A stretch of 64,000 nt of DNA from a virus, in IMG/VR virus record IMGVR_UViG_3300048588_001019, positions 16,486 to 80,485 of that record, one strand, 5' to 3'. The notes under the pieces are model-generated. The model was not told the origin of the DNA. It did no database searches and saw only the letters and a list, made by a program, of their open reading frames with translations. Numbering within the stretch: position 1 is the stretch's first letter; each line of letters opens with the position of its first letter. Of the stretch, positions 16,336 through 57,248 are shown one piece after another. The translations under genes were made by a program, and so were the position numbers.

Positions 16336-16694
16336 GACGGCCTTATGAGCTGACGTTTTTGTTTTGGAAGAACGTAGAACATGGACGCTTAACGGCGAAA
16401 TCGAATAAGAGCAGGAGAGCATTGTTGGTTAGAAGTCGAAATAGATTCCAGCTCTCCAACTCGCACACAGAAGAAGCCTTTCGCCGAAAAGAGGAGTTAT
16501 CTGAAATCTTGATCTGATAAAGGAGTGCTTGTTAGAAGCAACTTTACTATTCCGAAATAATTGTCTTGATTAGTCGTAATCAGACGAAAACATTAATAGT
16601 AGGAGAGGTTTGTGACTTGTATTAAAGATACTATTTTAGCTCGTTGATCTAGTTCCGATAGTTGCACTGCGTTAAAAATATCCAAGGAATTGCC

Positions 16695-18731
16695 ATGCAC
16701 AACGATCTTCGAACTTCCTTAACCCGTAGCGCCATTGAGAAAGCATTGAGCTACATCGATGGTGGTGGAACGTCTCGATTAGACCGGACAAGTGATTATG
16801 TGCTGCAGTCGCGACATAATTCATACCAGCTTACCCAAGTCATAGGCATTGCTTCGAAATGGGCCATAGGAGAATACCTTCAGGATGAGGATTTGCCAGA
16901 AGACCTAGATAAATGGTGTGTTAGCACGTTACGCATGCTGGGCTATTCGATTAGGAAGACCTCAGGAACAGATAATCAAAAAATATGGATAGAAAATGTA
17001 TTGGATTGCCACGAGCAACTATCCCCGTTCTGGAGAATAGGGGAGCGGCTCATTGCCCCAATTAATCTCGAATCCAATTCAGCTAACCTTATTAAGAATA
17101 TAAAATCCGGAGACCTTGTATTGCATTGCCAAGGTGGAGAATTTGTCGGGCTTTCTGAAGTTGCGCTAGAGTGCCTGCCTGTTATTTGCTCAGCGCCACA
17201 AAAAGGCCAATGGAAAGGATGTCGAGCATTTTTCGAGGTTACTTTGAGGGATTTTCGAAGGTTTTCAAAGCCAGTTCCAAATCCAGGTGGTGAAGCGAAT
17301 GATTATATATGCGTGAGTAGCTTAGATGCCTTAGATCATGTTTCGAGTGCTGCATGGTCACGTGAATCGGATGAGATCAGTGATTCAATGAACGTGTGGT
17401 TGGTTTCGATAGGAAGAAATAGAAAAGCGTGGCATGAATTTTCGGAGAAGTCCATCGTCGCGTTAGCAGCAGATCATCTTGGAGACCTTAGTCACTACCC
17501 CAGTGCTTCGAGTATAGAGGAATCCCTTGTGGCAGAGGGTATCTGTGACAGTCGTGACTTGAAAAAGCTCACAGATGCTTACTTCAGTTTTCGTTCAGGG
17601 ATGGTTGTCGGTTCGTGGATCGCTCTAAGGACGGGTGGCAATGAAATTGTGGGCCTAGGCAGGGTTACGTCGGACTACTTTTTCGATTCGACTGAACGTA
17701 GGCATGTACGTTCGGTTGAGTGGCTATCGTCAGAAAAAAGAGTAATACCCAACTTTGAGTTAAGCGAAGATGATTCTGTACAGAAAGTTGAACTAAATAG
17801 GTACCTGCATCCTGGCATTAGGAATGTTCTTAATGCAAGTGGATTGGAGTTTAGTCCAAACATTGTTACAAAGAGTCAGTGCATTTCGAATATCTTCATT
17901 CCTAAGGGGTCTTTTGATGAAATAGTTGCGTCGTTGGAAATGAAGAAAAACATCATTCTTCAAGGGCCTCCAGGAGTCGGGAAGACCTTTGTTGCAAGAG
18001 TGATCGCAAATTGTCTGATGGGTGTAGATGATAATGGAAAAGTTGAATTGGTCCAGTTTCACCAATCTTATGCTTACGAAGATTTCATTCAAGGATGGAA
18101 GCCCAACAAAAATGGTGGATTTGAAATTAGGAACGGAATTTTTTATGAATTCTGCAATAGGGCGAGGTTGCAGCCGAAGAAGCGGCATGTCTTCATAATT
18201 GACGAGATTAATCGAGGGAACCTTAGTAGGATTTTTGGAGAATTGTTACTTCTCATCGAGGCAGATAAGCGTGGCTATAAGCATGCGATACCTCTAACTT
18301 ATGCGCCATCGGAAGTCTTCTGCGTACCTCCCAATGTTTTCATAATTGGATTGATGAATACCGCAGATAAATCTGTATCATCATTTGACTACGCTTTAAG
18401 AAGGCGGTTTACGTTTTTTACAGTAGACCCCTGTTTCAGCTCACCTGAAGGAGCTGAAAAATTTAAGAGCTACCTCATATCTAAGAATGTGACGGAAACA
18501 TGCGTCGAAAAAATTATTCGAGTCATGACAGATCTCAATCAACATATTGCTAGTAAAAAGTACGCGAAGAGACTTGGGAAAGGTTTTCAGATAGGGCACA
18601 GCTACTTTTGTCCTTCGGATGATCGTAGCAAGGACGACACTTGGTTTGAGCAAATATGGCAGCATGAAATCATCCCAATTCTGCAGGACTATGGTATCGA
18701 TGATGACGAAATTAAGAAAGTAGCTGGATGA
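16695..18731 (+). CDS. mcrB: McrB-type AAA+ GTPase with EVE/PUA-like recognition domains
   Basis: A 678 aa protein, starting at ATG 16695 behind AAGGA. The C-terminal half is an McrB AAA+ domain: Walker A GPPGVGKT at about residue 424, FHQSYAYEDFIQGWKP, Walker B VFIIDEINRGN at about 498, sensor GLMNTADKSVSSFDYALRRRF. McrB hydrolyses GTP and drives McrC cleavage of modified DNA. The N-terminal half carries two segments that look like EVE/PUA modified-base readers, one near LVLHCQGGEFVGLSEVALEC and one near SWIALRTGGNEIVGLGRV. It overlaps the McrC gene by 4 bp. Compared with E. coli McrB (about 460 aa) it is long because of these readers. An m5C methyltransferase is encoded 2 kb away on the other strand. 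Confidence 0.85.
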   Translation: MHNDLRTSLTRSAIEKALSYIDGGGTSRLDRTSDYVLQSRHNSYQLTQVIGIASKWAIGEYLQDEDLPEDLDKWCVSTLRMLGYSIRKTSGTDNQKIWIENVLDCHEQLSPFWRIGERLIAPINLESNSANLIKNIKSGDLVLHCQGGEFVGLSEVALECLPVICSAPQKGQWKGCRAFFEVTLRDFRRFSKPVPNPGGEANDYICVSSLDALDHVSSAAWSRESDEISDSMNVWLVSIGRNRKAWHEFSEKSIVALAADHLGDLSHYPSASSIEESLVAEGICDSRDLKKLTDAYFSFRSGMVVGSWIALRTGGNEIVGLGRVTSDYFFDSTERRHVRSVEWLSSEKRVIPNFELSEDDSVQKVELNRYLHPGIRNVLNASGLEFSPNIVTKSQCISNIFIPKGSFDEIVASLEMKKNIILQGPPGVGKTFVARVIANCLMGVDDNGKVELVQFHQSYAYEDFIQGWKPNKNGGFEIRNGIFYEFCNRARLQPKKRHVFIIDEINRGNLSRIFGELLLLIEADKRGYKHAIPLTYAPSEVFCVPPNVFIIGLMNTADKSVSSFDYALRRRFTFFTVDPCFSSPEGAEKFKSYLISKNVTETCVEKIIRVMTDLNQHIASKKYAKRLGKGFQIGHSYFCPSDDRSKDDTWFEQIWQHEIIPILQDYGIDDDEIKKVAG

Positions 18732-19795
18732 AGCTGCCTCTAAAAACTCTTTTCTACATGTTATCTTATGCTGGCAACATGCTCGATGAAGCTGATGCGA
18801 TTGATCTTGAGCTGTCCGACGACTGTGGTGCAAACGATTTGCTCGCAGATATACTTTGTGGCGGAATAGAGCTGCTGATCCGACGTGGAATGAGTCAATC
18901 CTATCTCGAATACTTGGAGAAAACAGCAACACCAAGAGGGAAGATTGACTTTTCTGCAACGATAAATTCCTCGGCGCTTCAAGTTGGGCAACTCATTTGT
19001 GCAGTGGAATGTTTGTCTTTGAATTCAATCAAACACCAAATTTTGAAAGAGTCACTATATCTCTTATGCGCTAAGGGCCTGCTTTCTAGCAAAATTAGGA
19101 AACGGGTTGAGCATGTTTTGCATGCGTTGAGTGAAGTCGATCGCATAATGCTGAGTGAGCAGATTTGTCTTGATGCTCTAAGGGAGCCTGCACAGCCAAT
19201 TTATCGCTTCCTACTAGAAATTTCATTCCTGATATTTGTGTCGTCAAAAGTGGGTGATGCAGGATCAGAAGTAAAACTTGTTGATTTTACCCAAAATGAT
19301 CGTCTGATGCGAAGAGTTTATGAAGCATTTGTCAGAAATTTCTTTAGATATGAAACCGACTTCCTAATCCAGGGGCGCCAGACTCCATGGCAGAACCTAC
19401 TTGCTAGGGGGTCTAAGGCCGATCTGAAGCTCTTTCCAAAGCTTGAGGCTGACATTAGATTGGCTAGTAAGGATGGTGCACGCAGAATCATTATTGAAAC
19501 AAAGTATATGTGGAGGCATTTTCAGATATACAAAGAAAAGAAATCGTTTATATCAGCTCATTTAAATCAGCTCTTTGCTTATTTAGCAAATTTCCAAATT
19601 CAAGATCCCGGTCCGATGTATGAGGGAATTCTTCTGTACCCTACAAACGGAGAAGTGAGCTTTAACCACTCGTATAATCTTCATGGATTCACGCTAAGAA
19701 TCGCTACAGTAAACTTGTTTCAATCGCCTATGGAAATTGAAGAAGAACTTCTTGGTATAGCGAATTGTGAAAAATCAATACGCAGGGTTTCATAA
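18728..19795 (+). CDS. mcrC: McrC-type restriction endonuclease subunit
   Basis: A 355 aa protein, start codon overlapping the McrB stop (ATGA). McrC is the nuclease partner of McrB. The PD-(D/E)XK site is visible at about residues 238-258: PKLEADIRL, then IIIETKYMW, giving Asp and Glu-x-Lys. The N-terminal region begins with PLKTLFYMLSYAGNML, as in the McrC/DUF2357-type family, and the usual helical middle follows. Length fits E. coli McrC (about 348 aa). Its 3' end is 7 bp from the end of a convergent gene, with no separate terminator visible. Confidence 0.85.
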   Translation: MKLPLKTLFYMLSYAGNMLDEADAIDLELSDDCGANDLLADILCGGIELLIRRGMSQSYLEYLEKTATPRGKIDFSATINSSALQVGQLICAVECLSLNSIKHQILKESLYLLCAKGLLSSKIRKRVEHVLHALSEVDRIMLSEQICLDALREPAQPIYRFLLEISFLIFVSSKVGDAGSEVKLVDFTQNDRLMRRVYEAFVRNFFRYETDFLIQGRQTPWQNLLARGSKADLKLFPKLEADIRLASKDGARRIIIETKYMWRHFQIYKEKKSFISAHLNQLFAYLANFQIQDPGPMYEGILLYPTNGEVSFNHSYNLHGFTLRIATVNLFQSPMEIEEELLGIANCEKSIRRVS

Positions 19796-19802
19796 TTGCA
19801 GG

Positions 19803-20621
19803 CTAAGCAGAAATCTGGTGTTTGCCTTTTACCATTGAATTCGAAAGATTTCTCATATTTGCATAAATTCTAATGCCATCGTTGCTCTGAGCGAGGTATC
19901 CAGAGGAAAGGGCCGATTTAAGTGTCAAGTCTAATGGTTCATTTGAAAGGAAGAGCGATACAGCTGTGTTGGTCCACTTTAGGTCATTAAGCGAATATTC
20001 GAAAGTTGTATCCACTGTTGAGCTGAATTGGCTATCACCCAAGCATAGTCCATACGCTAGTGCCTGGGGGGCAATTTCACCATGGCGACGCATCTCGACC
20101 ACAACTGTTGATTCGTTTGCTTTTATCGTAGCTAGGTCAGATCCAAGGCGAGCTTCCTTTAGCCATCTCGCTAACGGCCCTCGGGATGTATTATCGACGC
20201 CTTTTGAAATCCATGCAAAAAACATGCTTTCAAACCTTGGACCGAAAACTACGAGTTCACCTTGTGACCGTGTTACTTCGCGATAGAGCCCGCGTATTGC
20301 TTCGAGAGCTTTAGCAGTGCCGAATACATAATCAATCCACAAACATTGCCTGAGAGCAAGTGAGTCTTTGCCTGCTAGTAATGCGATTGGATATACTTCA
20401 CGATCTGCCTTTGGTAATGACAGCCATAAAAAAAAGCGGCGTACAAAAGCGTCCCTGGAGCGCGAATCGCCCAAGTCTTCTGGATGGTCTTTAAGTAAAG
20501 CGATTGAAGTGCGTAAGTCAATCCCCTCATTTATTTCCTCATGTTGCCAGATAGTTTTCCAGTGCTCTAGAAGATGGAAAACTGAAGAATAATGAGTTTT
20601 TTTTCCAAACGAGTCAGCCAT
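19803..20621 (-). CDS. Unknown protein cotranscribed with the m5C methyltransferase
   Basis: A 272 aa cytoplasmic protein I do not recognise. It is mixed alpha/beta with no signal peptide or membrane helices. A run SRDAFVRRFFLWLSLPKADR and a later WLKEARLGSDLATIKANEST can be seen but match no motif I can name. It starts 15 bp after the methyltransferase stop, so it belongs to that operon, and it ends tail to tail with McrC. The position suggests a specificity, regulatory or restriction accessory subunit of the same modification-restriction locus. Confidence 0.6.
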   Translation of the reverse strand: MADSFGKKTHYSSVFHLLEHWKTIWQHEEINEGIDLRTSIALLKDHPEDLGDSRSRDAFVRRFFLWLSLPKADREVYPIALLAGKDSLALRQCLWIDYVFGTAKALEAIRGLYREVTRSQGELVVFGPRFESMFFAWISKGVDNTSRGPLARWLKEARLGSDLATIKANESTVVVEMRRHGEIAPQALAYGLCLGDSQFSSTVDTTFEYSLNDLKWTNTAVSLFLSNEPLDLTLKSALSSGYLAQSNDGIRIYANMRNLSNSMVKGKHQISA

Positions 20622-20636
20622 TCATCGGCTCCCGGA

Positions 20637-21812
20637 TCAAATTGACCGCTTTAGTGACATTCTTTTGGAATCCAGTCCTTGAAGAAACTCTAGAAGACTT
20701 CTTGCGTATGCCTCAGCTAATCGCACTGGCACTGCGTTACCAACTAAGCGATGTTGTGTTGAAATGCTTCCTCGGAAAATAAAATTATCGGGGAAACTTT
20801 GCAGTCTCGCAGCTTCTCTGGGTGTCACTCGCCTAGCGGGAACTGGAGATGTGTAAACATCTTTTTTTGTATACTTTTCGCTTTCAATGGGTGATGCGCC
20901 TTGATCGGTATAGCGAAGGTCAGGTGCAAGTACTCCACCTAGCGAGGGGTTGGTATCTGCGGGTATAGTTTGAGATGGTAAATAAGGGTCTGGTTTTGGA
21001 AATAGTCTAGGGCTTCTATACTTTGCAGGATTATCTAATATTCTTTGGAGGCGTTCTGGAAGTGTATCTCTGGGAGCATCTCTGAAACAGCCGCCATTGG
21101 GTACATGACGCATAAATGCTTGTACGCTCAGAGGAAGAGACTTGTAGATATGTGCGTTAATTATAGGAGTAATGTCAAGGGAGCCCTCAGGATCTTGCTT
21201 TACTGGGGGAGGAAGATTTCCAATGGCGTCCAGAATCGATTTATCTGACTTTTTGACTTTGCATGCTTTTGCTGATGAGATGTCGTAGTCAACTGTTATA
21301 TCGTTGCGAACTCCAACAATGATTAAGCGCTCACGACGTTGCGCGACACCAAAATCGACGGCATTTGCGATACTCACATTAATCCGATATCCTGCAGAAG
21401 TAAATGCTGCCTTTACTTCATCTAGAGCCATTGCCTGCATTCCACGGACATTTTCCATCAAGAACATTCGAGGTTGTTTGCGTTTAACAATTTGTACAAA
21501 ATTAAGATACAGTTTATTTCTCGGATCATCTAGAAACTGTCGGCCGGCAAAGGAGAAGCCTTGACAAGGGGGGCCGCCTACTATTACTTCGCTCCAAGGA
21601 AGATCATCAATTGCCAATTCGCGGTCAGCTAAGTCAAGACTTTTATTAAGTATATCACTGCCGCCAAACAGTTTGGCGTTGGCCTTGTATGTTTCAACAG
21701 CAGGTTTCCAATTGTCAATCGCGGACACAATATGAAATCCTGCCTGTACGAAACCAAGATCCATACCGCCGCAGCCGCTGAACAAGGATAGTACTGAGCG
21801 ACGCATAGACAT
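20637..21812 (-). CDS. dcm: DNA (cytosine-5-) methyltransferase
   Basis: A 391 aa m5C methyltransferase with AGGAAG before the ATG. Motifs in order: I at residues 9-20 (SLFSGCGGMDLG), IV with catalytic Cys83 (GGPPCQGFSF), VI at 120-122 (ENV), VIII near 159 (QRRERL), and X near the C-terminus (GNAVP). The segment between VIII and X (about residues 175-320) is the target recognition region, with the common GGVLAPD-like loop. It transfers a methyl group from SAM to carbon 5 of cytosine. It heads a two-gene operon facing McrBC, so it may protect the host from that nuclease or be the modification half of one system. The symbol is used only for the family. Confidence 0.9.
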   Translation of the reverse strand: MSMRRSVLSLFSGCGGMDLGFVQAGFHIVSAIDNWKPAVETYKANAKLFGGSDILNKSLDLADRELAIDDLPWSEVIVGGPPCQGFSFAGRQFLDDPRNKLYLNFVQIVKRKQPRMFLMENVRGMQAMALDEVKAAFTSAGYRINVSIANAVDFGVAQRRERLIIVGVRNDITVDYDISSAKACKVKKSDKSILDAIGNLPPPVKQDPEGSLDITPIINAHIYKSLPLSVQAFMRHVPNGGCFRDAPRDTLPERLQRILDNPAKYRSPRLFPKPDPYLPSQTIPADTNPSLGGVLAPDLRYTDQGASPIESEKYTKKDVYTSPVPARRVTPREAARLQSFPDNFIFRGSISTQHRLVGNAVPVRLAEAYARSLLEFLQGLDSKRMSLKRSI

Positions 21813-24900: not shown

Positions 24901-27900
24901 TTAAGTATTCGGAACAGGCCCTGGTATGGGAATTCTTGGCGTGGAGGGCGGTACAACGCTTGGACTCGGAATTAAAATCGGCCCTCTCGGATAACCATAA
25001 TATTTTTCGTCTACAGGTTCGCCTGGATTTGTCAAAACGGGTACTTTAGGGCCATATGTAGGCTGTGCGTTGCGAATATTTTCAATGGCTTGATCCAGTT
25101 CAGTTTTAGTCTTGATTTGTTTCATAACGTCTTTGACGGCTTCCCCCATGGGTCCATAATTGGGCGAATATCGAGGAACAGGGGGTAATGGACGTGCAGA
25201 CGGCACCATCGGAATACATTGCATCCCATCCGGATCTATTTTGTTAATTGGGTCATTGTCCGCATACACATAAAAATTGGAGCCTGCATCAAACCGAAGT
25301 GGGTCTTTGTTCAACCATCTTCCTATTGAAGGGTCGTAGTCTCGTGCTCCGAACTTGATTAGACCAGTTTCTCCGTCATAAATTCCACCTGCAAATCCAA
25401 ACGGTTGAAAACCGGGGTTGGAGTCACTCAAAACGTTACCCCACATATCATAAACAATCTTTTGAACAATCTCACCATTTTCTGAATTGATTACATATAT
25501 AGGACTGCCGACATGATCATGTATGATACGATAAGTTACATTATTTTTTATGATCAAGTCTGGACTATTGGTTTTTGTTCCGTAAACAAAGGTCGCGCTA
25601 ACTGAACCGTCTTCTGCAAGTTGAGCCACTGGCCTAAGAGCATCTTGGTAGAGAAATGCATATGTGAAGATTCCATTGACTTTACGACTCAGCCTGTGAT
25701 TTTCCGTGTCCGTATCATATGCTACCGTACTCCCAGAGGAGTCAGTTACTGAAAGCAAATTTCCCACAGCATCGTAATTGTAGGAGATCTTTCTTCCACT
25801 TGGGTCAGTCTTTTCTTCGAGATTTCCATTCAAGTTGTATTTATAGACCCATTCGCTTGAGGATACTAAGCGATCGTGGCTGTCATATTGCTCTCCTTTC
25901 CCTTTTTGAAAGCGATTTCCGTTCGCGTCGTAACTGTAGGATGCAATTAGAGTTCCGTTAGATCTTTCAGATATCAACTGGCCAATAGCGTCGTATCCAA
26001 ACTTCTTGAGTTCAACTCCATTTGGATCCGAGCTCTCTCTTGAGACTATATTTCCAAGAAGGTTGCGTGTATAGACCTGTTTATTTAGCTGAATGCCATT
26101 CGAGCTAGTCTCTTGAGAAATGAGCTCTCCGAAATTATTATAGGTCATAGCTGTTGTAACAACTCCAACCGAGCTGGAACTGATAAGGCCATTAATTTCG
26201 GATCTATTGATAGTCAAAGTATTTGCGCTAACAATTTCGTTTTCTGTATTGTAGGTATAGCTAACCGCTGGTTGCCCATTTACTGAGATCGAAGACAGAG
26301 TATAGTAAGGAGTCCACGACAGGTTTACTTTTCCTTTCACGGGGCCATTCCACTCTCTTCCAGTAATTAGACTGCCGTCGTATTCATAACTCAAAAATTG
26401 TTCACCGGATTGAGCATAAATCAATCTATCGGTGGCGATGTCATACTGAAAGGTTTGAGCGACTGACTTACCTTGCACTGAGTATAATTTCCCGACTGTT
26501 TGATCATATCCCATTACAATGGCAGTGCCATCAGGTTGATTAATTCTGATAGGTTCATCGTCCAGCGAGTATTCCCAACTCCATGTAGGTCTGTCACTAC
26601 CGAGCCGGGGCTCGAGAGATTGACTGAGGAGATTTTTCTGATCGAATGTAAAATCATAGGTCTTATCGATAGGGACAGAAACTTGGGTTCTATTACCGTT
26701 GTTATCGAATTGCATCTTCACAACTTGACCATTCGCTAGAGTTTGCGAAGTGAGGCGACGATTAGCATCATATGCAAATTGTGTGGTTTGGCCCAAAGGG
26801 TTACTTAGAGATGTCAATAGGCCTGTACTATCGTAGGTTAATGTATAGGTCCGGGGTCCACGTGTAATCGATGTTAGTTGACCTCTCTCGTTATAGGTAT
26901 TCAAAGTTGCTGCTAGCCCGCCTGAAGTTATTTTTGTTGGATCGCCTTTATTATTAAGTGCAATGGTTGTTTTTCTGCCACTTGGGCTGACAATCGTATA
27001 CTGCATGTTTGCCTTCGAGAATCTCGTCCTGGTGATTCCAAGGCCCAGTTTGTTGAAAGTTTTATTGAAAACGATGAGGCTAAGAGGGTTTGTAGCATCC
27101 TCATAATTAGCTGCCTCAGAAATGGTTGTTTGCGCTGTCAGGCCTGAAGGAAGTCTTTCTATGATGTTACTTAAAAAAACTCTTTGGGGGAAAAGTGGAC
27201 TGGATTTGTAATCCATGCTTGTCTCTGTCCCATCCCTTGTTCTGGATATCTTTTGTTTGCCATTGATAGATGACCTTAGAATATTGCCGCGATCATTTTC
27301 GTGATTTCGCACGATAGTGTCTGTTGTTCCATCGTGATTACTGACAGTTTGGAAGTAACGATTGCGGTTCAGTGGAGAGGTGACTCGTATTTCTTCCATA
27401 TACGGGCTGGTATTGCTGAATGTTCTACTTGAAGTGCTTTCAACGAATTTTCTGATTAGTCCTTTCGCATCGGTAGTCTGGCTTAAAAGCCCCTGGCTGT
27501 CATAGGTATATACTTTGGTCGAATTGTTGGGGTATGTGTAGGTTAGCATCAGGCCCAGGCTTGGTCCTTCGCCATATGTAAACTTAGTGATGTTTCCGAC
27601 AGGATCCTGTAGATCATAGATATAGCCGTTCTCATTTATGTTGACTTTTGTTAGCTCACCGTGAGGACTTAGAATACCTGTCAGTTGCCCAGTCGCTGAT
27701 CGCTGCAGAGTCGTAGTGTTGCCATATTTGTCTGTGATGCTAATAAGTCTGTTTAAATCGTCGTGTTCAAAGATTGTTGTAGCGATGTTGGATATTGCAT
27801 CAAATGTCTTGAGGTGGAGCCCTCTTGGTGAGAACAAATAGATTTCAGTGGCGTCACTGGACGGAATGTAGATATTGCCTTCAGCGTCAGTTTTCCAAAC

Positions 27901-28848
27901 TGGAGTTGTGTTGAGGTTTAGAAGCGGCATCCTTTGTCCAAAGCCCGTAAACACAAGGTTGCTTGCGCTGTCAAAGCTGTGATAGTGACTTATTGACCAC
28001 CCTCCTAAATTGAAGCGGTCAGAGTAGGTACTATTGTTCATTACAAATCTAAATAGCTTGGCGATGGTTCCATTTCCGTCACCGCCAGGATTGAATTCCG
28101 TTTTTATTACAATCCGAGTTGTTCCTTGAACGGAGCCTTTCACAAGCTGACCTGCAGCATCAAGGCCGTCCCAAACGACCCTTTGTGAGACTGAGTCGCT
28201 CTCTTGTATGTAAGTCCTGTTTATCGGTATGCTTTTGGAATAGGTTCGGTCGCCAATTTTTGTAATAAAATTAACTTTCAGAATCTTGCCATAGTGGGGC
28301 TGCGGATAGAACTGTCTAATTGATTTTGTGACGATTCGGTCGGCATAGGAACCGCCGATTGTATTTCGTGAGGAGTAGGTGAGCGAGTACGGAGTACCGA
28401 CGATTTCATAGCTCTGACTCACACTTCTATCTCTACATTCTATCTTTGATCCAGACACACTTGTGGGTAAGTCTGAGGTCCCGTCGCACGAGCCTCCTTT
28501 AGGCATTGGATCGCCTGGGCCAGAGCCACCACCCGAGCCGGAGTCATCGTCGCCGCTATCACCAACAGCTGGAGTATCTTCAAAACAGACGGGATCTGTT
28601 GGATGTTGCGGGCAATAGTCTGTTCTAACTTGAGCTCTAAACTCTTCAAGAGGTGTACTCTCGTTGCCATCAGAGTAGCAGCTCTCCGATCCGCCGCCAG
28701 AAAATTTGCAGTACTGAAACCTATAGGTCGATCCGCACTCAAATGGCACCGATGATCGCGAATCATAGTTCTTAGACGCATCTGTTGCGCATGACCAAGT
28801 AGACCAAGTTGGGATACCTGTTCCGGATTCTTTGTATGTCCCGAGCAT
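24901..28848 (-). pseudogene. Rhs/YD-repeat lipoprotein, main part, separated from its 5' end by an IS
   Basis: About 1315 residues. After a cysteine-rich region (residues 1-140) comes a DSGSGGGSGPGDP linker, then a long array of YD repeats (for example YDSQGLLSQTTDAKG, YDANGNRFQKGKG, YNYDAVGNLLSVTD) that would build a beta-barrel shell. The conserved Rhs core ends with FGARDYDPSIGRWLNKDPL and NPINK-type IDPDGM. After DPDGM only about 105 residues remain, proline-rich and without a recognised toxin motif. The N-terminal signal lies beyond an IS at 30040-30256; joining the two across the IS keeps the frame (EG then MLGTYKES). ATG 28848 could still start a leaderless protein. Confidence 0.75.
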
Positions 28849-28879: not shown

Positions 28880-29659
28880 TCAGCCTGCTAGACGTAATCC
28901 CTTTGTCTCTGCAAATTTGCTTGGCGTCATTCCTCCCAGAGAGGTGTGAGGCCTTCTTTCGTTGTAATCGATCCGCCAGTCTTCGATGATGCCTCGGGCA
29001 TCTTTCAGATTCGAAAACCAGTACATGTTCAGGCATTCATCCCGAAGGCGTCCATTAAAGCTCTCGATAAACGCGTTCTCGTTTTTCTCTCCAGGGCTTG
29101 CGAAGTGAAGCCTAACTCCGTTGTCCAAAGCCCATTTTGTGAGAGCTTTGCTGATGAATTCCGGGCCCTGGTCAACGCCGATTTCCTCCGGCAATCCCCG
29201 TTCGGCTTTCAACTTCTCCAGGACGCGAACAACGCGATGCCCGGAAAGGGATGTATCAATTTCCATCGCTGGACACTCGCGCGACCATTCGTCGATGATC
29301 GTGAGAATCCTGAACGACCGACCGCTTGCAAGATTGTCGTGCACGAAGTCCATCGACCAACGGGAATTGGCTTTGGTAAGCGGCGGCAGCGGGTTCTCGG
29401 GCTTATAAACCCGACGCTTTGGCTTTCGCTTCTTGAGCTGCAACCCGTTTCCATAATATATGCGCTCGGTGCGCTTATGATTTTTGACAAGGCCTTCACT
29501 TCGCAGTACGAGGTGTACGCGGGGGCATCCGAATCGCGGACGCTCTTCGAGCAGATTCTTCATCCTATCAAGGATTTGGTGGTCCTCGGCCGGCTTTTTC
29601 TCATATCGAACGGTGGAACGGTCTGCGCCCACTATCTTACAGGCCCGACGCTGGCTCAT
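28880..29659 (-). CDS. IS3-family transposase OrfB
   Basis: 259 aa from its first ATG. It has an HTH_21-like start (RFGCPRVHLVLRSEG) and the rve core with DDE residues: Asp in WSMDFVHDNL, Asp in GVDQGPEF, Glu in NAFIESFNGRLRDECLN. The C-terminus RPHTSLGGMTPSKFAE is typical of the IS407/IS3-type enzymes. The frame is open upstream to the orfA frameshift site, giving residues VLGPDEERKAVELVQEAFG before this ATG. Confidence 0.85.
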   Translation of the reverse strand: MSQRRACKIVGADRSTVRYEKKPAEDHQILDRMKNLLEERPRFGCPRVHLVLRSEGLVKNHKRTERIYYGNGLQLKKRKPKRRVYKPENPLPPLTKANSRWSMDFVHDNLASGRSFRILTIIDEWSRECPAMEIDTSLSGHRVVRVLEKLKAERGLPEEIGVDQGPEFISKALTKWALDNGVRLHFASPGEKNENAFIESFNGRLRDECLNMYWFSNLKDARGIIEDWRIDYNERRPHTSLGGMTPSKFAETKGLRLAG

Positions 29660-31135: not shown

Positions 31136-31565
31136 TTCAGGAGAGTGTCTCCTATGCGGTCTATCGTTAATCTCCAAAGTCACCCATCTGACTGGTCACG
31201 TTTATCTCGAAATTTTTCTTAACCCAAGGCATTAAATTGACCGTATACTGATACAATGGAAGTATTTCTGGAAGATAACATGCGCTTCGCCTGTTTAAGC
31301 AATTCTTGGCAGATGCAGATGCAGGTACAGCCGAAATCAAAACGGACTTCAGGTACGCACTTTGGGCCCGATCTGTTGTATTTAACAACTTCAGGAGGTT
31401 CGCAATCCTGTCGGTTAATGCTAGCTGCTTTTTCCGCCATACATTCGGTGAAAAATACGCGGATATCTACCTCCCGAGCATATCAGAAAGCCGAACCGTT
31501 CAGGTGACATTTGTTTGTTAGATAAACTCCGCGACTGAACTGAAACCTATTGAGTGGATGATGTG

Positions 31566-33446
31566 ATGAGCAAAGTATTTCTTCGCAATTTGCGCTTCTT
31601 CTTAATTCTAATTTGTGCAGTCAAGCCCTCACTGGGGTCTGCCTTCGCTGAGGCTCAGCCAATTCGTAACTTTCATATGGCAGAGATCAAAGATGAATCA
31701 CTTTCTATCGAAGCCATTATAAGGGAAAAGGACTCCCTGTCCTGGAACAAAGTCAGTGATACGGCTGCGAATTTTTATAGAGGGGACACACGAAATGTCG
31801 TCAGATTTAAGTTACAACAACTCGAGTATGATGAGATTGTAATAAGGGTTTTTTATGCCCATATTCAAAACACTCAAGCTTTCGCGGTTGATGGAGATAA
31901 TGCTCGAGAACTTAAAGCTCTCCCTGATAGATATGCAGCCTTTCTAGTTCCTCGGGAATACATAGGTAAGGACATTTTTGTTATTCAGAAATTTTCAGGG
32001 TTTTCCATGTTTGGGCCTAGGCCTATCTTTTTTATGGATCGATATGCGTACCAAATCGACGCTGAGATGGATCGAATGTATATAGGCATAGTGTTCGGTA
32101 TTATCTTCATCATGATCGTGTACAATATAGGAATGTTCCTATTATTTCGAAAAGTCTACTTGTTACTTTACATTCTCTACTGTTTATCGGCAGCGTTTCA
32201 GTTTTCGTTCACAAGTGGTTTGACGTTAAGAGGCTCTCTTGAGGTGGGTCTGTTTTATTACATAGCATCATTTTCAAGCGGATCTTTCGCTGTATTGTTC
32301 TCGATGCATGTCTTGAACATCAAGCGAGAATCAATCTCGCTGTACCGGATTGGACTTTTTGTTCTCACGATCTCTTTTATAAGCCTGATTGGTTCCCTAT
32401 TGGGTCATCATTTTTTCGTCAAGTACTTCGTATCCCTCGCGTTTCCTGTTTTAGGATATTCCACTTTTCTTGCCGTTCGCGCAGCGTACAACGGCTATAG
32501 ACCAGCATATGCCATGCTTCTGGGTTGGTCCGGCCTTTGGCTGTCATTTGTTTTGGTCGCTATGCAGTTCTTAATATCAGGATTTCCAAATATGGGGTGG
32601 GGGCCACCTATCGCGATTTCATTTGAAATCGCTACATTTTCTTTTGCAATGGGCCAGAAGCTGAGGATGAGCGAACTCAAATTCATGAAGGAAAATCAGC
32701 ACGCTTTCGCAGAAATGGCAAAGATGGTGTACTCACATCAACTGTCGGATATCAGGCTTGGAAAGCCTTTAGAAGAAACCATGCCGACCACCACATCTCA
32801 GGCTTGTGTTCTATCTTTTGATATTATTGGATCAAGCAAAATCCAGCACGTAAACGCCAAGATATTTTTCAGAAACACGTTTACTAAGTGCAATGAAATC
32901 ATTTCTGAGGGCTACGATGGCAAGAACCTAAGAGCCAATGCTTATCGCATTAAAGAAATGGGTGACGGTTTCTTGTGCTCTATTGGGTACCCTTTTCAAG
33001 CCATGAGCAATAATCTGGCCCATGATGCAGTTGATTTGGCTAAGAGATTCGCAAAGGTCCTCCATGAAGAGCAAAAAATGCTTCATACCGAAATTCCCAC
33101 TACATGCGGGATTGGTATTGCACTGGACACAATCACGGGTTTTTATCCAGAAGCAGGAACCAAAGAATATGACCTTTATGGTCAGGCCATTGTCCTCGCT
33201 ACTCGTTACGAAGGAATGAGAAAGACGCTTTTTGAAGCGGATAAAGGTCGTTCGGTTCTTATTATTCAAGAAAAGGTTTTTCTAAGCCTGGATCCTTCGC
33301 ATAGATGTGGATTTGCTTCAATTGATCTGAAAGAACTCGGAGTCGTCGTCAGAGACGATCCCGCAGCCACTAAGCTCTACTATCAATATCTGGATCAGGA
33401 TTCGGTTGGCGAAGAGCGACCAGGAGGTCATTTAAAGGTTGTGTGA
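31566..33446 (+). CDS. 7TM-DISM-type membrane receptor with class III nucleotidyl cyclase
   Basis: About 626 aa from ATG 31566. A signal peptide (LRFFLILICAVKPSLGSAFA) is followed by an extracytoplasmic beta domain of about 150 residues resembling 7TMR-DISMED2. Seven transmembrane helices follow, from about residue 178 (IGIVFGIIFIMIVYNIGMFL) to about 365. The C-terminal third is a class III cyclase domain: first metal Asp in LSFDIIGSS, second in EMGDGFLCS, and the A-x-R-Y-E pattern in the dimer-interface helix. It would make cAMP or cGMP in response to an external ligand, perhaps a carbohydrate. Two related cyclases lie at 35.6-38.7 kb. It has its own upstream region and a weak ribosome site. 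Confidence 0.8.
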   Translation: MSKVFLRNLRFFLILICAVKPSLGSAFAEAQPIRNFHMAEIKDESLSIEAIIREKDSLSWNKVSDTAANFYRGDTRNVVRFKLQQLEYDEIVIRVFYAHIQNTQAFAVDGDNARELKALPDRYAAFLVPREYIGKDIFVIQKFSGFSMFGPRPIFFMDRYAYQIDAEMDRMYIGIVFGIIFIMIVYNIGMFLLFRKVYLLLYILYCLSAAFQFSFTSGLTLRGSLEVGLFYYIASFSSGSFAVLFSMHVLNIKRESISLYRIGLFVLTISFISLIGSLLGHHFFVKYFVSLAFPVLGYSTFLAVRAAYNGYRPAYAMLLGWSGLWLSFVLVAMQFLISGFPNMGWGPPIAISFEIATFSFAMGQKLRMSELKFMKENQHAFAEMAKMVYSHQLSDIRLGKPLEETMPTTTSQACVLSFDIIGSSKIQHVNAKIFFRNTFTKCNEIISEGYDGKNLRANAYRIKEMGDGFLCSIGYPFQAMSNNLAHDAVDLAKRFAKVLHEEQKMLHTEIPTTCGIGIALDTITGFYPEAGTKEYDLYGQAIVLATRYEGMRKTLFEADKGRSVLIIQEKVFLSLDPSHRCGFASIDLKELGVVVRDDPAATKLYYQYLDQDSVGEERPGGHLKVV

Positions 33447-35638: not shown

Positions 35639-36958
35639 TTATACCGCTGACAGAGTATTTATCTGAATTTTTGAGGAAGGAGCTGTTTTTTGCCAGACAG
35701 TACATTGTATGCCAGCAACGTCTTTTGTATCAGCAGTCAAAACCTCAGAATGCCCTGTCTTATAGCAGTCCATGTTAGAGGCCAGCATAGACAACTCTTG
35801 GTCTAAAACCACTATTGGAAACGTGTATTCGTCTTTATCTTGCCCATATCCGGTAATTCTAAGGGCTTTTGCTTGCATTTCGAGCCTCTTCGCCACTCCG
35901 GCCATTTCTCCGGAAATCGTTGTTTTCATTCGTTTTTGAGGCCCTTGAAGACCAATAAATCCGATCCCAGCTGACATTCCAATGTCAAAGTTTAAGGAGA
36001 TATTCAATTTCGATTGAATTTCTTCATGGATTTTTGTGGCTAAGGCATTCGCGAACTCTAGGGCATGTAAAACGACTTCTCCCCTGCTTTCACCTTCTTC
36101 GAAAAAAATCACGAACAGTTCATCGGCCCACCAATCGGCGTAGTAGCAACCGGACGGTACATTACGGTCCAGTTGCTCCCAGACAATGTCATAATATATT
36201 CTGAAAAGTTCGGATATTTGGGCGGGTGTATGAGTCTTGGCAAGGGACTGATACCCTCGCCAGTCCGAAGACAGGCAAACTGCAAAGCGATCTTTGGCCT
36301 CAAAGACCTTTCTCAAATCACGGCTCTTCTCTTGCATCAGGGCTAAATGCCAAGCAAGTTTTGGCGGAACTAGAGCCCGAAAGTTTTCATAGCGAACCTG
36401 TATTCCACTGAAAAATTCCCGTCGCAAATAAAACATTATTCCGTAGCTAAACAAGTGGCAGAGAATATAATGTAGGATTTCATTTTGTTGAGTCGATTGT
36501 GATAAATAGTTTGTTAGTAAAGCTCCTGCTGTTGATAATGCGAGAAGTATGGTGTTGGCCTGTCCGAAGCGATGGGTGATAAATGACGAAAAGAATGCAA
36601 TTAGGAGTGAGCCAGTGGACACGGTTTGAATATAATCTTTTCCCGTGATTTGTAAAAACACCATAAACAGCCAGTTAATACCGACTACTGGCACTACTAG
36701 CAAAACGAGGTCTCTTAATCGACTCTTGGGGAGTAGTTTTTCGCCTATAAGAACTCCGGCACAAAAGAGTAAAAAGGCCACCCGCCAGGGAAGATAAGGC
36801 GCTGCGCCGCCTTGCTTGAAAGTAACGTGGTCTAGCGGAATCTGAATAGCCATATTAATCAGACCTATCCAGCCGATGACCTTGATGTAGCGAGGAGCAT
36901 GTAAATCGGCCCATTCCCGAGCCAGCGATTTCGCTCCCAATCTAGACAAAATAGACAT
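35639..36958 (-). CDS. Membrane protein with divergent class III cyclase domain
   Basis: A 439 aa protein with AGGAG 8 bp before the ATG. Five or six transmembrane helices occupy residues 25-185 (for example VGINWLFMVFLQITG and GSLLIAFFSSFITH). The C-terminal half resembles a class III cyclase: SSDWRGYQSLAKTH where the first metal Asp is expected, DWWADELFVIFF for the second with the usual GD changed to AD, and EMAGVAKRLEMQ for the interface helix. It may still bind nucleotide, but catalysis is less sure than for the other two cyclases here. It is the last of a three-gene minus-strand unit. Confidence 0.65.
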   Translation of the reverse strand: MSILSRLGAKSLAREWADLHAPRYIKVIGWIGLINMAIQIPLDHVTFKQGGAAPYLPWRVAFLLFCAGVLIGEKLLPKSRLRDLVLLVVPVVGINWLFMVFLQITGKDYIQTVSTGSLLIAFFSSFITHRFGQANTILLALSTAGALLTNYLSQSTQQNEILHYILCHLFSYGIMFYLRREFFSGIQVRYENFRALVPPKLAWHLALMQEKSRDLRKVFEAKDRFAVCLSSDWRGYQSLAKTHTPAQISELFRIYYDIVWEQLDRNVPSGCYYADWWADELFVIFFEEGESRGEVVLHALEFANALATKIHEEIQSKLNISLNFDIGMSAGIGFIGLQGPQKRMKTTISGEMAGVAKRLEMQAKALRITGYGQDKDEYTFPIVVLDQELSMLASNMDCYKTGHSEVLTADTKDVAGIQCTVWQKTAPSSKIQINTLSAV

Positions 36959-37360: not shown

Positions 37361-38704
37361 TTAACCAGCTTTTGATTTGGCAGCCAAAGCTTCTGCCCAG
37401 TAGTAAACAGAAGAAGCTGAGGGTGCATCTCTTACCTTTTCTGAGGTAAGGCTAAAGCTGTTATAGTCAGTCTTGTGCGATGCCGAAAGATTGCTAAAAA
37501 ATTCTTCAGAAACAATTATTATATTTCCTTCTGCCCCCAAAAGCGGAAGGAGGGTCTTTCTAAACGACTCATAACGAGTTGCCAAAACAATTCCATTTCC
37601 AAATAAGTCGTATTCTTGAGCTCCAGTGGCTGGAAATCCACCAATTACTGTGTCATAGACTATGCCGATGCCGCAGTATATATTCCCATTTTTACTCGTA
37701 AAATATCGCTCGACTTCACTATTAAATACCTGCACAAAACTCATAGCTAAAGAATGAGCTTCGTCAAACATGGAAGCTCCACTTACTTTGAAAGGGAATC
37801 CGACTGAGCAAAGAAAGCCGTCGCCCATCTCTTTTATTCTGAAGGCCGAGGCGAACACATCCGTGCCCTCGAATCTATATCCCGTCATCATAAGCTTGTG
37901 GCATCGCTTCATAACATTTTCAAAGAAGAGGTGGTTCTCTTTGTGACCGATTTTTGAGGAATTTTGAATATCAAATGAAATAATGCAGCATTTTGATTCG
38001 CCGCTAGGCATGGTTGATTGAAGTTTAACCCCGTCTTCAATCATGTTGACTTGGTGTTTGTAGAGGATTTTTGATATTTCCTCGTAAGCGTGAACTTTCG
38101 CGTCATTTGCTAATCCAGATACATAGAACTTGTATCGCATTAAAATAGCCGCGAACACTGAAAGAGCCAATGCCATGGAAAGATATGCAATTGTCTCGAT
38201 GGAATTTTTTAGCAGAGCTTCGATATTAAAAATAATGAAAATAAGAGAATTAAGGAATATACATATCGTTTGGCGAATAAAAAGGTTTTTAAGCCAAGGA
38301 TGAAATGCGAAGGCCACAGTGAAGAATATGTTCATGCCAAGATAATTGTGGTTAAGGAAGTCCTCGTGTCTCAGTGCAGAATAGACGGAAACAATCCAGG
38401 CGGTTTCGATAATAAAAACGGAGCAAATTATTTCCCAGAATATCCAAGGCCTTTCTTGAATGAGTTTGAAATGCTTGGCGAATAAAGAGTATGAGAAAAA
38501 CAGTAACGCTGTTGTAAAGTGACTGAGGCATAGTACTGGTGTTTTGGTTTCAATTCCGCATATTACACCAACAATCAAAATCGCTGCGCCACCAAACCGA
38601 TAGGGCATTGCCGCAGCGTAGTATTGATGATAGTCACGAGCGAAAGCTTTAAGATATCGCTGCTTGTGGTTTTTGCAATACTTGGTGACTTCAAGTCTGT
38701 CCAT
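37361..38704 (-). CDS. Six-helix membrane class III nucleotidyl cyclase
   Basis: A 447 aa protein. About six transmembrane helices lie in residues 35-210, without the extracellular domain of its homologue at 31.6 kb. The cyclase domain has both metal sites: ISFDIQNSSKIGHK and KEMGDGFLCSVGFPF, then EYDLFGNGIVLATRYESFRK. These motifs are nearly the same as in the 31566 gene, so the two are close paralogues. It should synthesise a cyclic nucleotide at the inner membrane. It is the first gene of a unit with a lipoprotein and a second, divergent cyclase. Confidence 0.75.
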   Translation of the reverse strand: MDRLEVTKYCKNHKQRYLKAFARDYHQYYAAAMPYRFGGAAILIVGVICGIETKTPVLCLSHFTTALLFFSYSLFAKHFKLIQERPWIFWEIICSVFIIETAWIVSVYSALRHEDFLNHNYLGMNIFFTVAFAFHPWLKNLFIRQTICIFLNSLIFIIFNIEALLKNSIETIAYLSMALALSVFAAILMRYKFYVSGLANDAKVHAYEEISKILYKHQVNMIEDGVKLQSTMPSGESKCCIISFDIQNSSKIGHKENHLFFENVMKRCHKLMMTGYRFEGTDVFASAFRIKEMGDGFLCSVGFPFKVSGASMFDEAHSLAMSFVQVFNSEVERYFTSKNGNIYCGIGIVYDTVIGGFPATGAQEYDLFGNGIVLATRYESFRKTLLPLLGAEGNIIIVSEEFFSNLSASHKTDYNSFSLTSEKVRDAPSASSVYYWAEALAAKSKAG

Positions 38705-53852: not shown

Positions 53853-54253
53853 TTGAGCCCATCTTCCGAAAGCTATACCCGGCATTCGACCCGGAGCCGA
53901 TTGAAAACATCCGGCTTCGCGCGAACCCCGAGATCAGGGAGGCCATCCTCTGGGAATACAGCCTTGAGCCGCTCCTTCCGTATGCCGTCGACCCCCAAAT
54001 GCTCGATGAGGAAGTCCAGGATTTCATGCGGCTTCATGGGACGCTTTTTGCGATCCGTACAGCCATGCGCTGGGTGGGATTTGAAAGCATAAGGTTCATC
54101 CCGCTTTCCTACTTTGAATATGAAGTCGATCCCGGTCGCATCCCATCGGAGCGGGAAATTGAGGCCATTCGCGCCGCTCTATATGTATCAGTTCAGGCCC
54201 GCGGCAAGCTTAAACGAATCTTTCATGGATCATTCGAGGTCAAATATGAGTGA
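53849..54253 (+). CDS. Phage tail protein I
   Basis: 134 aa, overlapping J by 4 bp. IENIRLRANPEIREAILWEY and LPYAVDPQMLDEEVQDFMRL are variants of the P2 gpI pattern of baseplate protein I. Shorter than P2 I (176 aa). A host-specificity fibre gene (H) normally follows I; here the sheath gene follows at once. Confidence 0.7.
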   Translation: MIEPIFRKLYPAFDPEPIENIRLRANPEIREAILWEYSLEPLLPYAVDPQMLDEEVQDFMRLHGTLFAIRTAMRWVGFESIRFIPLSYFEYEVDPGRIPSEREIEAIRAALYVSVQARGKLKRIFHGSFEVKYE

Positions 54254-54743
54254 CGCACTCTACGTGCATGGAATCATCATCAGTCAGGCGACTGGCGAAG
54301 CCCAGGAGATACGCTCGCCATCGACGAGTGTTGTGGGAATTGTGGGGACAGCACCCGCCAGCAAGGATCTAACTGTCAATTTTCCTCGGGATTTCCTCGG
54401 GAAAAAGGCTGCACTTGACATTATTTATCCTGAGGGGGCAACGGGCGACAAGGGAACGCTTTATGATGCCGTGATCGGTGTTCAGGAGCAGGGCCTTGCC
54501 CGTATGGTCCTTGTGAAGTCCGCATCGGGATCTCAGTCTGATATTTTAAAAGCCATTGATGCTTTGCCAATGGCCAAATCGGTGACGGGTCATAAGCCCA
54601 AGATTCTGATTGTGCCCGGCTTTGGCAGTGAGATCACGCAGGCCACGGTGAATCCTGCACCGACACCAAACCCGACGCCTTCGCCCAATCCGATGCCTTC
54701 GCCGGAACCCGAAAACAATCGAAACAGACCCCGGGGGACCTGA
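54246..54743 (+). CDS. Contractile tail sheath, N-terminal half
   Basis: 165 aa from ATG 54246, overlapping I by 8 bp. YVHGIIISQATGEAQEIRSP and STSVVGIVGTAPASKD are the start of a P2 FI-type sheath, and HKPKILIVPGFGSEITQA is the usual middle segment. Then, instead of the next sheath helix, comes a proline-rich tail with NPTPSPNPMPSPEPE, and a TGA at 54741. The next gene is in the same frame and carries the rest of the sheath. Either two polypeptides assemble or the TGA is read through at some rate. Confidence 0.75.
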   Translation: MSDALYVHGIIISQATGEAQEIRSPSTSVVGIVGTAPASKDLTVNFPRDFLGKKAALDIIYPEGATGDKGTLYDAVIGVQEQGLARMVLVKSASGSQSDILKAIDALPMAKSVTGHKPKILIVPGFGSEITQATVNPAPTPNPTPSPNPMPSPEPENNRNRPRGT

Positions 54744-54746
54744 TCC

Positions 54747-55505
54747 ATGGCTGACACCGCAAATCCAATTGTGACAAAACTCGTGTCCGTAGCGCGGCGC
54801 CTAAAGGCCATTGCAGTTGTCGATGGCCCGGAGGATGAAAAGCAGCTGAAAAAGTTCCGTGACCTTAATGGCAACACCCGCCTTTACATCGTTTCGCCAA
54901 AGGTCAAGGTCGCGGCTGACGACAAAACAATTTCCGCTCCCGCGAGTTCGTATGTGGCTGGTGTATTTTCAAGAATCAACTTCTGGCAGTCGCCATCGAA
55001 TCAGCCACTTTATGGAATTCTTGGAACAAGCGTTGGGATCTCGTTTGAGATGGATGATCCCGAGTCCACGGCCCAGCAGTATAACGCCATGCAAATTGCG
55101 ACTCTTATCCGTGAGGATGGGGGCTTCAGAGTCTGGGGAGCAAAGGGTACAGGAAGTCCTTCGGACTCAAAAACGAGTCAGATTCAAAAGGTCCGAATCG
55201 CCGATGCCATCGAGGAAGCCATTGCCGCTTCAACACGCTGGGCGGTGGCGGCAGGGATCAATCGCGACTTCATAGGAGCGGTCGAAAGAAAGGTGAATAA
55301 CTTTTTTTCAGATCTGATCCGTGAAGGGGCCATTGTCGGCGGCGAATGTAAGGGTGATGCGGAGCGCAATACAGCCGACGCTCTGGCCCGCGGCGATGTC
55401 TATTGGAAGTATAGCTTCACGCCAGCCGCCGTGGCCGAGACGCTTCACTTTGAAGGATTCAACACCAATAAATACTACGAAAATTTTGGAGAAGGAGCCC
55501 AATGA
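54747..55505 (+). CDS. Contractile tail sheath, C-terminal half
   Basis: 252 aa. ATG 54747 follows GGGGGA by about 9 bp and lies 3 bp after the in-frame TGA. The sequence starts at the sheath helix that normally follows the APGF segment (LVSVARRLKAIAVVDGPEDE) and continues through VKVAADDKTISAPASSYVAG, FRVWGAKGTG and RWAVAAGINRDFIGAVE, to a normal FI C-terminus. Neither half alone is a full sheath (P2 FI is 396 aa; the two add to 417). Confidence 0.75.
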   Translation: MADTANPIVTKLVSVARRLKAIAVVDGPEDEKQLKKFRDLNGNTRLYIVSPKVKVAADDKTISAPASSYVAGVFSRINFWQSPSNQPLYGILGTSVGISFEMDDPESTAQQYNAMQIATLIREDGGFRVWGAKGTGSPSDSKTSQIQKVRIADAIEEAIAASTRWAVAAGINRDFIGAVERKVNNFFSDLIREGAIVGGECKGDAERNTADALARGDVYWKYSFTPAAVAETLHFEGFNTNKYYENFGEGAQ

Positions 55506-56716
55506 ATTCATTTCGTCTGATTTTATTCGCAGCCATTTTATGTTTAGGCTTTGCCGCTTTCGCCCAGCAAACAGCGCCGCTTTTTTCCGATAATGAAAGT
55601 CCCACGTTTGAAAGCACATATCTTATCGACAACATAGGGACAAACAGCAAGGGAGGGGACCTCACGCTCAGGATCCACAAGACCGCCCCATTCGGTGAGT
55701 GCAAGGACAGGGTCAACTGCCCTGCATCGGTGATTGTTTCCGGGGCCACGGGAAATGTGAACATGCCTGTTGACGTGAATGTCCGCTCACTTCATGTCGG
55801 AAAGAATCCGGTGATTGATGCCGGAGGAAAATGGGTTGGTCCTTCCACAGGACTCATCGGTCCCAAGGGTGACAAAGGCGATCCCGGCATCCCGGGTCCC
55901 AAAGGGGACAGGGGTGAACCGGGGCCTCTTGGTCCGCGCGGTGAACGTGGCTTTGATGGTGCCCTGGGACCAGCCGGCCCCAAAGGTGACAAGGGCGATC
56001 CCGGCATTCAAGGCCCTTCAGGGGAAAAAGGCGAAGCGGGACCTCCCGGACTTCGTGGTGAGCGCGGCCCTGAAGGCCTTCAGGGACTCATCGGTCCCAA
56101 AGGTGACAAGGGTGATCCCGGAAAGCCCGGCGACGGCTGCTGGTACGACGATCAAACGCAAAGAATCAGATGCGGGGAGACCTGGATTGAAATCGCGAAT
56201 CTCAAAGGTCCGAAAGGTGATTCCGGATCTGCAGGACCGAAGGGTGATAGAGGCGACAAGGGCGAGAAGGGCGAGAAGGGCGACAAGGGTGATCGGGGAA
56301 TTCCAGGTGAAAGCTGCTGGTATGACGACCAGGCGCAAAGGATCAACTGTGCGGGAGGCACCTGGATTCCGATTGCTCTTCTGAAAGGACCGCAGGGTGA
56401 AAGAGGACCGATGGGGCTGACAGGGCCAATGGGCAGCGCCGGACCCATGGGTCCTCAAGGGCCAAAAGGAACTGTAGGCAGCTGCAGGAAGGTCCTATCT
56501 GAAACAACTCTTCTCAACATTGCAGAGGTATCCGCCTCCTGCGATGAGGGTGAAATTCTGACTGGTGGAGGCTGCTACATCTCAAACGGAATAGGGCATC
56601 AACTGCAGTCCTCTGTTCCCATCCTTGAGGAAGGCACATGGTATTGCGAGTGGATCTGGAAGTCAGGCGTGAGCCCACAGGCCAAAGGTCAGGCCTTTGC
56701 CACCTGCTGCAAATGA
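55502..56716 (+). CDS. Collagen-like protein with Sec signal in the tail operon
   Basis: 404 aa, ATG overlapping the sheath stop (ATGA). The N-terminus is a Sec signal (MNSFRLILFAAILCLGFAAF, cleavage after AFA). Residues about 118-330 contain two long G-x-y triple-helix blocks (GPKGDKGDPGIPGPKGD and similar), separated by a CWYDDQTQRIRCGETW unit that recurs as CWYDDQAQRINCAGGTW. The C-terminal 80 residues form a small cysteine-containing domain. Collagen-like stalks occur in phage fibres, but a signal peptide is not expected in a virion part. It may be a lysogenic-conversion surface protein expressed with the tail genes. Confidence 0.75.
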   Translation: MNSFRLILFAAILCLGFAAFAQQTAPLFSDNESPTFESTYLIDNIGTNSKGGDLTLRIHKTAPFGECKDRVNCPASVIVSGATGNVNMPVDVNVRSLHVGKNPVIDAGGKWVGPSTGLIGPKGDKGDPGIPGPKGDRGEPGPLGPRGERGFDGALGPAGPKGDKGDPGIQGPSGEKGEAGPPGLRGERGPEGLQGLIGPKGDKGDPGKPGDGCWYDDQTQRIRCGETWIEIANLKGPKGDSGSAGPKGDRGDKGEKGEKGDKGDRGIPGESCWYDDQAQRINCAGGTWIPIALLKGPQGERGPMGLTGPMGSAGPMGPQGPKGTVGSCRKVLSETTLLNIAEVSASCDEGEILTGGGCYISNGIGHQLQSSVPILEEGTWYCEWIWKSGVSPQAKGQAFATCCK

Positions 56717-56726
56717 GGAGCCGTGA

Positions 56727-57248
56727 ATGTCCGTTAAATTTCCTTTGTACCTCAAAAATTTCAATCTGATCCTCGGTCCAACCGATTATGCCGGCGTTGC
56801 TGAAGAGGTCACGTTCCCAAAGATCGCCTACAAAACCGAGGAGGTGTTGAACGCCGGCATGGCGATGCCCATCAAGATGCCGACCGTGCTTGAGGCAATG
56901 GATGTGACCTTCAAGTTGAGCGAGCAGACCTTTGAAGGATTTGTTCTGGCGGGCGCTCCGACCGCAGGGCTGGTTGATGCCGTGGTTTATGGGCACATGC
57001 AAAATGCACTCGGTGCAACCTCCGAGCTGATTTACGCGATGCGCGGGACCATCCTCAAGATTGACCCAGGATCTGCAAAGAATGGGGATCTCAAGGCGGG
57101 CGTGCAAACGCTGGAGATGAATCTCATGTCGCTCGTTGTCACGCGCGACAGCATTCCAATTTTCGCTGTCGATGCTCAGAACGGAGTCATCAAACACGGT
57201 CCCCTTGATCACTTCGAGTCGGCGCGAAAGAATTTGAAGCTTGGTTAA
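56727..57248 (+). CDS. Tail tube protein (P2 FII family)
   Basis: 173 aa, like P2 FII (172 aa). FPLYLKNFNLILGPTDYAGV, EEVTFPKIAYKTEEVLNAGM and AVDAQNGVIKHGPLDHFES are family features. Monomers stack into the tube inside the sheath. Confidence 0.85.
   Translation: MSVKFPLYLKNFNLILGPTDYAGVAEEVTFPKIAYKTEEVLNAGMAMPIKMPTVLEAMDVTFKLSEQTFEGFVLAGAPTAGLVDAVVYGHMQNALGATSELIYAMRGTILKIDPGSAKNGDLKAGVQTLEMNLMSLVVTRDSIPIFAVDAQNGVIKHGPLDHFESARKNLKLG

Follow-up and report, generated by a model that had tools for sequence, protein, structure and literature searches.

A contractile tail sheath gene cut into two adjacent genes and kept under selection in a phage clade

Introduction

In the tail operon of a phage, the gene of the contractile sheath is interrupted by one in-frame TGA after a proline-rich stretch, and the question is whether this locus encodes a broken sheath, a sheath completed by read-through, or a sheath that is built of two chains. 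The locus lies in a window of 64,000 nucleotides, the whole stretch of DNA analysed here (positions 16,486 to 80,485 of the IMG/VR record IMGVR_UViG_3300048588_001019), and its features are listed in Table 1. A sequence-only reading of the window had left all three options standing. In the phages and pyocins used for comparison, the sheath consists of one chain, and in the type VI secretion system (T6SS) it consists of two. We find that the sheath gene is cut into two adjacent genes, which are kept under selection in a phage clade. The explanation that fits best, and that very probably holds, is a natural two-chain contractile sheath, in which one ancestral fission led to two translationally coupled genes with products folding as one protomer.

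The two halves of the sheath

Both chains are in the same frame, with a single sense codon (TCC) between the TGA of chain 1 and the ATG of chain 2 at 54747, and the C-terminal end of chain 1 reads ...GFGSEITQATVNPAPTPNPTPSPNPMPSPEPENNRNRPRGT. Re-reading of the open reading frames (ORFs) confirms the coordinates, the frame, the spacing of 3 bp and the proline-rich end before the TGA as first described. The read-through ORF corresponds to a complete sheath, matching PHROG 23 (tail sheath) over residues 4-414 (E=1.8e-68), and the profile match of the sheath to PA0622 of the R2 pyocin in the PDB reaches E=6e-130. Each half is also recognizable on its own: chain 2 matches PF04984 and PF17482 above the cut-off and PHROG 23 with E=6.5e-58, and chain 1 matches the tail sheath PHROG with E=2.6e-8. 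A second sheath gene was not found anywhere in the 80,485-base record. A split intein was considered as the cause of the cut and rejected, neither half having a match to an intein family in the Pfam search.

Position of the cut in the fold

The structure model of the joined, read-through sequence, built on a 53-sequence alignment, has a mean predicted local distance difference test (pLDDT) score of 78.8. Most of the core scores 85-96, and the linker (residues 132-170) scores below 50 and is disordered. In read-through numbering, this disordered linker sits between strand 120-122 and helix 174-186. The best PDB matches of the model are the structures of the pyocin R2 sheath (E=2e-27, template modelling (TM) score 0.74). 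Because profile positions 30-166 of PF04984 fall on chain 2 and the first 29 positions before it, with the linker in the loop between the KPKILIV strand and helix 174-186, the cut is inside the subtilisin-like main domain, at a single loop of its conserved core. The sequence-only reading had placed it between two sheath domains, which the profile and the model show to be wrong. In 42 representative single-chain sheaths, the same loop spans 85-97 residues in 10 cases and 8-9 residues at its shortest. Such a loop is probably situated on the outer surface of the sheath, which fits the published observation that extra sheath domains lie away from the tube (PMC9230969).

Conservation and selection in near relatives

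Scanning of viral contigs with each half separately yields nine records that are 86-98% identical in chain 2, and the same cut exists in all eight near relatives having both chains (the window counted). The TGA and the ATG are constant across the near relatives with a junction, the intervening codon being TCC, TAC, AAC or GCC. The length of chain 1 ranges from 159 to 196 residues, with the difference in the proline-rich tail. Among the relatives, the ratio of nonsynonymous to synonymous substitutions (dN/dS) is mostly 0.05-0.15 in both halves (0.06-0.22 in chain 1 and mostly 0.05-0.08 in chain 2), at dS values that often exceed 0.5 and extend to saturation. Strong purifying selection acts on both chains. 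Furthermore, the final nine codons of chain 1, compared over seven records, have 7 of 8 informative codons identical versus 106 of 289 elsewhere (Fisher p=0.006), as is expected if this DNA doubles as the ribosome site of chain 2.

These data bear on the possibility that the locus is a decaying gene or an assembly or sequencing error, in other words a recent nonsense mutation in a once single sheath. Such decay has a precedent in a Wolbachia sheath (L104 in our numbering of loci) with one in-frame TGA inside the core. However, the cut in question recurs in 31 other records, always in one loop and with the new start correctly placed, and dN/dS stays low at synonymous distances up to saturation. 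Since the cut is conserved in many records and dN/dS is low, decay is excluded for practical purposes, with hardly any probability left to it, and with it the earlier suggestion of a recently killed gene; the cut is neither an error, nor a strain mutation, nor a dying gene. The sequence-only reading would have been overturned by uninterrupted, linker-less relatives, but the near relatives are all split, and uninterrupted sheaths appear in distant relatives. Its use of the linker as an argument against decay is weaker than claimed, the tail turning over quickly while the cut persists.

Junction types in the wider clade

The search for the same split in related prophages, which had been proposed as a check, shows 31 further IMG/VR records to be cut at this loop. 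Their chain 2 is about 49-98% identical, and some of the records are near-duplicates (e.g. L220/L221 and L195/L196), the independent sequences being fewer. The more distant split members, L118-L120, L200-L211, L213-L221 and L268, about 49-62% identical, belong to a wider split clade. In the subclade of the window, the junction is an in-frame TGA plus 3 nucleotides (nt), with TGA in every record. Other junctions comprise an out-of-frame overlap of 8 nt, ATGGCTGA or ATGCCTGA (L118-L120, L202-L210, L213, L217, L218), TAA plus 4 nt, out of frame (L200, L201), TAATTG with zero gap, in frame (L214, L215), TGA plus 9 nt, in frame (L216), TGA plus 8 nt, out of frame (L220, L221), TGA plus 7 nt, out of frame (L268), and TAG overlapping an ATA start (L211, L219). 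In the latter two prophages, chain 2 seems to begin at this rare start, ATA (L211:3926 and L219:3926), with GAGGTGA upstream, kept in both. The tail of chain 1 also differs across the clade, being made up of PNP, NPSGG or DPVNPT repeats or else short and plain. Frames, stops and gaps that vary in this manner are what separate genes permit and read-through does not.

Read-through or recoding of the TGA, by which a full-length sheath would be made alongside short forms, is the first alternative on which the junctions bear. TGA is generally the leakiest stop, and a following C forms a leaky context. In the subclade of the window, the halves are in frame and the stop is TGA in every record, as read-through would need, but the base after the TGA is T, A or G, never C, and the next codon varies. 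Moreover, sister groups have TAA or TAG, or chain 2 out of frame (L118-L120, L200-L210, L217, L220 and others), and the ATG and ribosome site retained at the junction would be superfluous for read-through. Because some relatives carry TAA or TAG at the cut or have an out-of-frame chain 2, read-through is excluded as the shared mechanism; a minor read-through product may be made in the subclade of the window, and this explanation is on the whole improbable.

A programmed frameshift or hopping that fuses both ORFs into one chain could likewise join the halves in L200, L201 and L205, in which the second ORF overlaps the first or its frame stays open 5' of the start. Against this, the relative frames differ among sister groups, the halves in the subclade of the window are already in frame, and the second frame of L207 is closed by a TAA one codon 5' of its ATG. 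A shared slippery site was not seen on inspection by eye, and fusion by frameshifting is highly improbable.

Ribosome site and proposed coupling

The sequence GGGGGA at the end of chain 1 pairs with the anti-Shine-Dalgarno sequence at -8.6 kcal/mol, a value among the best of the operon and matched by 1.6% of 256 control ATGs, which upholds the earlier claim that chain 2 has its own ribosome site. In L010 and L199, AGGAGG occupies the same place. Over 22 junctions, the mean pairing energy is -7.0 kcal/mol versus -2.5 kcal/mol for control ATGs. A Shine-Dalgarno sequence exists at most junctions, and the remaining junctions have an overlapping or adjoining stop and start.

Outgroups and history of the split

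The outgroup set of 153 loci was drawn from 80 genome hits and 73 viral hits, with an identity of at most 41% in all except L118-L120. The sheath is one ORF in 143 of the 153, cut by the contig end in six, split in three (L118-L120) and interrupted by a nonsense codon in one from Wolbachia. The latter, L104, was tried as a second split lineage and rejected, having a single in-frame TGA, a point nonsense mutation inside the core, in a different place. In contrast to the split clade, this Wolbachia gene is likely a pseudogene.

The chain 2 tree gathers the split members in one branch (100/100) beside 42 single-chain outgroups, with the single-chain L212 nested within. L212 (2461-4218 of its record) encodes a single chain of 472 aa with a long K/E/P-rich (KEEE/Pro) linker at the same loop, and is the only such clade member found. 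The simplest history suggested by these sequences would be one fission in the ancestor of the clade and one rejoining, in L212.

A further possibility is that the sheath is built by chain 2 alone, with chain 1 serving another purpose. In its favour, conservation is slightly higher in chain 2 than in chain 1. However, chain 1 matches the tail sheath PHROG by itself and holds core strands in the model, the pair is adjacent in all records, and the nested L212 has both as one chain; a sheath of chain 2 only is very unlikely.

A proposed two-chain protomer

The two-chain sheath, one of the options of the sequence-only reading, is thereby supported by the conserved cut, the low dN/dS and the varied junctions. 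In the proposed mechanism, ribosomes ending chain 1 would restart directly at chain 2, aided by the Shine-Dalgarno sequence and the very short distance between stop and start, so that both chains would be produced in similar amounts. The two chains would then co-fold into one protomer, and the heterodimers would build the sheath as the single chains do in other phages. Co-folding is suggested by a sheet whose strands come partly from one chain and partly from the other, neither half holding the whole of it. The proline-rich stretch at the C-terminus of chain 1 would hang free as a disordered tail, probably facing outwards from the sheath.

Several points weigh against this two-chain explanation. 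The model was made on the joined chain, so the association of separate chains is outside its reach, and we infer both heterodimer formation and stoichiometry. L213-L215 and L217 have weak Shine-Dalgarno sequences (-0.4 to -3.0 kcal/mol), two of them with TTG starts, and the expression of chain 2 would there depend on coupling alone. In addition, nearly all records derive from one metagenome series plus one isolate, and the known range is narrow. The isolate (IMG 2667527381) has two prophages with a split sheath.

Comparison with known sheaths

The split sheath belongs to the P2/pyocin family, in which it is filed as a variant since membership rests on sequence and fold. It shares PF04984, PF17482 and PHROG 23 with the single-chain sheaths of P2 (FI), of VHML-type phages and of the R2 pyocin (PA0622, PDB 3J9Q/3J9R), and the order of the tail genes is shared with P2-type tails. 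Those sheaths, however, consist of one chain of about 380-400 aa, whereas the window has two chains and a disordered tail at the cut. A single polypeptide per protomer is usual and is seen in all outgroups, but two ORFs are found in the window and nearly the whole clade. Single-chain sheaths with an insert at the same loop, after a PGF motif, exist in Xanthomonas phage FoX3, L123, L126 and L151; the insert lies there within a continuous chain, whereas chain 1 of the window ends in it.

In the case of the T6SS, the sheath TssB/TssC (VipA/VipB; IglA/IglB) is likewise made of two chains from adjacent genes, a short N-terminal chain (about 170 aa) and a long C-terminal chain; the likeness to the window is one of gene layout. 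The middle-layer sheet of the T6SS sheath is common to TssB and TssC, and the C-terminus of TssB and the N-terminus of TssC are untraced in the map (PMC5807055). Differences from the sheath of the window are the extra helices of TssC and the recycling of the T6SS sheath by ClpV. Neither TssB nor TssC is among the families matched by either half in Pfam at E<=0.1, and hhalign against 14 TssB and 3 TssC gives E=0.18 and 0.42, with no meaningful alignment. By analogy, the split sheath may work like TssB/TssC without membership of that family.

A report of a split or two-gene phage sheath was not found in the literature searched, which omits most subscription journals. It seems reasonably likely that this phage lineage independently evolved an obligate two-chain sheath by fission at a loop of extra sequence and that one member has since rejoined. 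If the chains assemble, this would be a second, separate origin of a two-chain sheath and a living model for the rise of TssB/TssC. The clade presents fission, several re-made junctions and one rejoining, which makes the order of steps testable. The loop tolerates evolutionary cutting or extension without loss, a property useful for work on contractile particles, and annotation pipelines will tend to label such sheaths broken.

Neighbouring genes and the rest of the record

In the tail operon, baseplate V and a weak gp25-like W lie upstream of the sheath, and the tube FII, the tape measure, U and D lie downstream.

Table 1. Sheath gene parts and the two genes that follow, in positions of the window
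Feature	Position	Strand	Description
Sheath gene, whole (both chains)	54246-55505	+	
Sheath chain 1 (N-terminal half, 165 aa, about 17 kDa)	54246..54743	+	N-terminal arm, first strands and helices of the sheath core
Proline-rich low-complexity C-terminal tail of chain 1	54624..54740	+	Predicted disordered; loop with extra sequence in other sheaths
Shine-Dalgarno-like GGGGGA of chain 2	54733..54738	+	Within the last chain 1 codons
Chain 1 stop TGA	54741..54743	+	Three bases 5' of the chain 2 ATG
Sheath chain 2 (C-terminal half, 252 aa, about 28 kDa)	54747..55505	+	Remaining subtilisin-like domain, then C-terminal domain
Collagen-like protein	55502..56716	+	Signal-peptide-like N-terminus (MNSFRLILFAAILCLGFAAFAQQ); PF01391 E=7e-28
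Tail tube protein FII	56727..57248	+	PF04985 E=1.2e-24

The collagen-like gene between sheath and tube is not part of the sheath, and its start codon shares bases with the chain 2 stop (ATGA). Most members of the clade have it beside the split sheath; L213-L215 and L217 lack it, and their tube gene comes directly after the sheath. The region from gpI to the sheath showed no fibre-like gene.

Near 44 kb, where the terminase begins, the GC content climbs from about 0.43 to about 0.53. Because the step coincides with the start of the terminase, the left two thirds of the window seem to be host chromosome, and the right third is a P2-like prophage. Two scans of genome contigs gave no host, and among 198 genomes drawn from the phylum of L069 there was no close match. 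In the host part, a McrB-like AAA ATPase and McrC adjoin a cytosine-5 DNA methylase (16662-21812), likely a restriction island, and a large RHS/YD-repeat protein on the minus strand (24901-28848) stands beside an integrase-like IS (insertion sequence) ORF (28880-29659, by eye). A 7TMR-DISM receptor with a cyclase domain is encoded at 31554-33446, and the cyclase-like ORFs at 35639-36958 and 37361-38704 are similar by eye.
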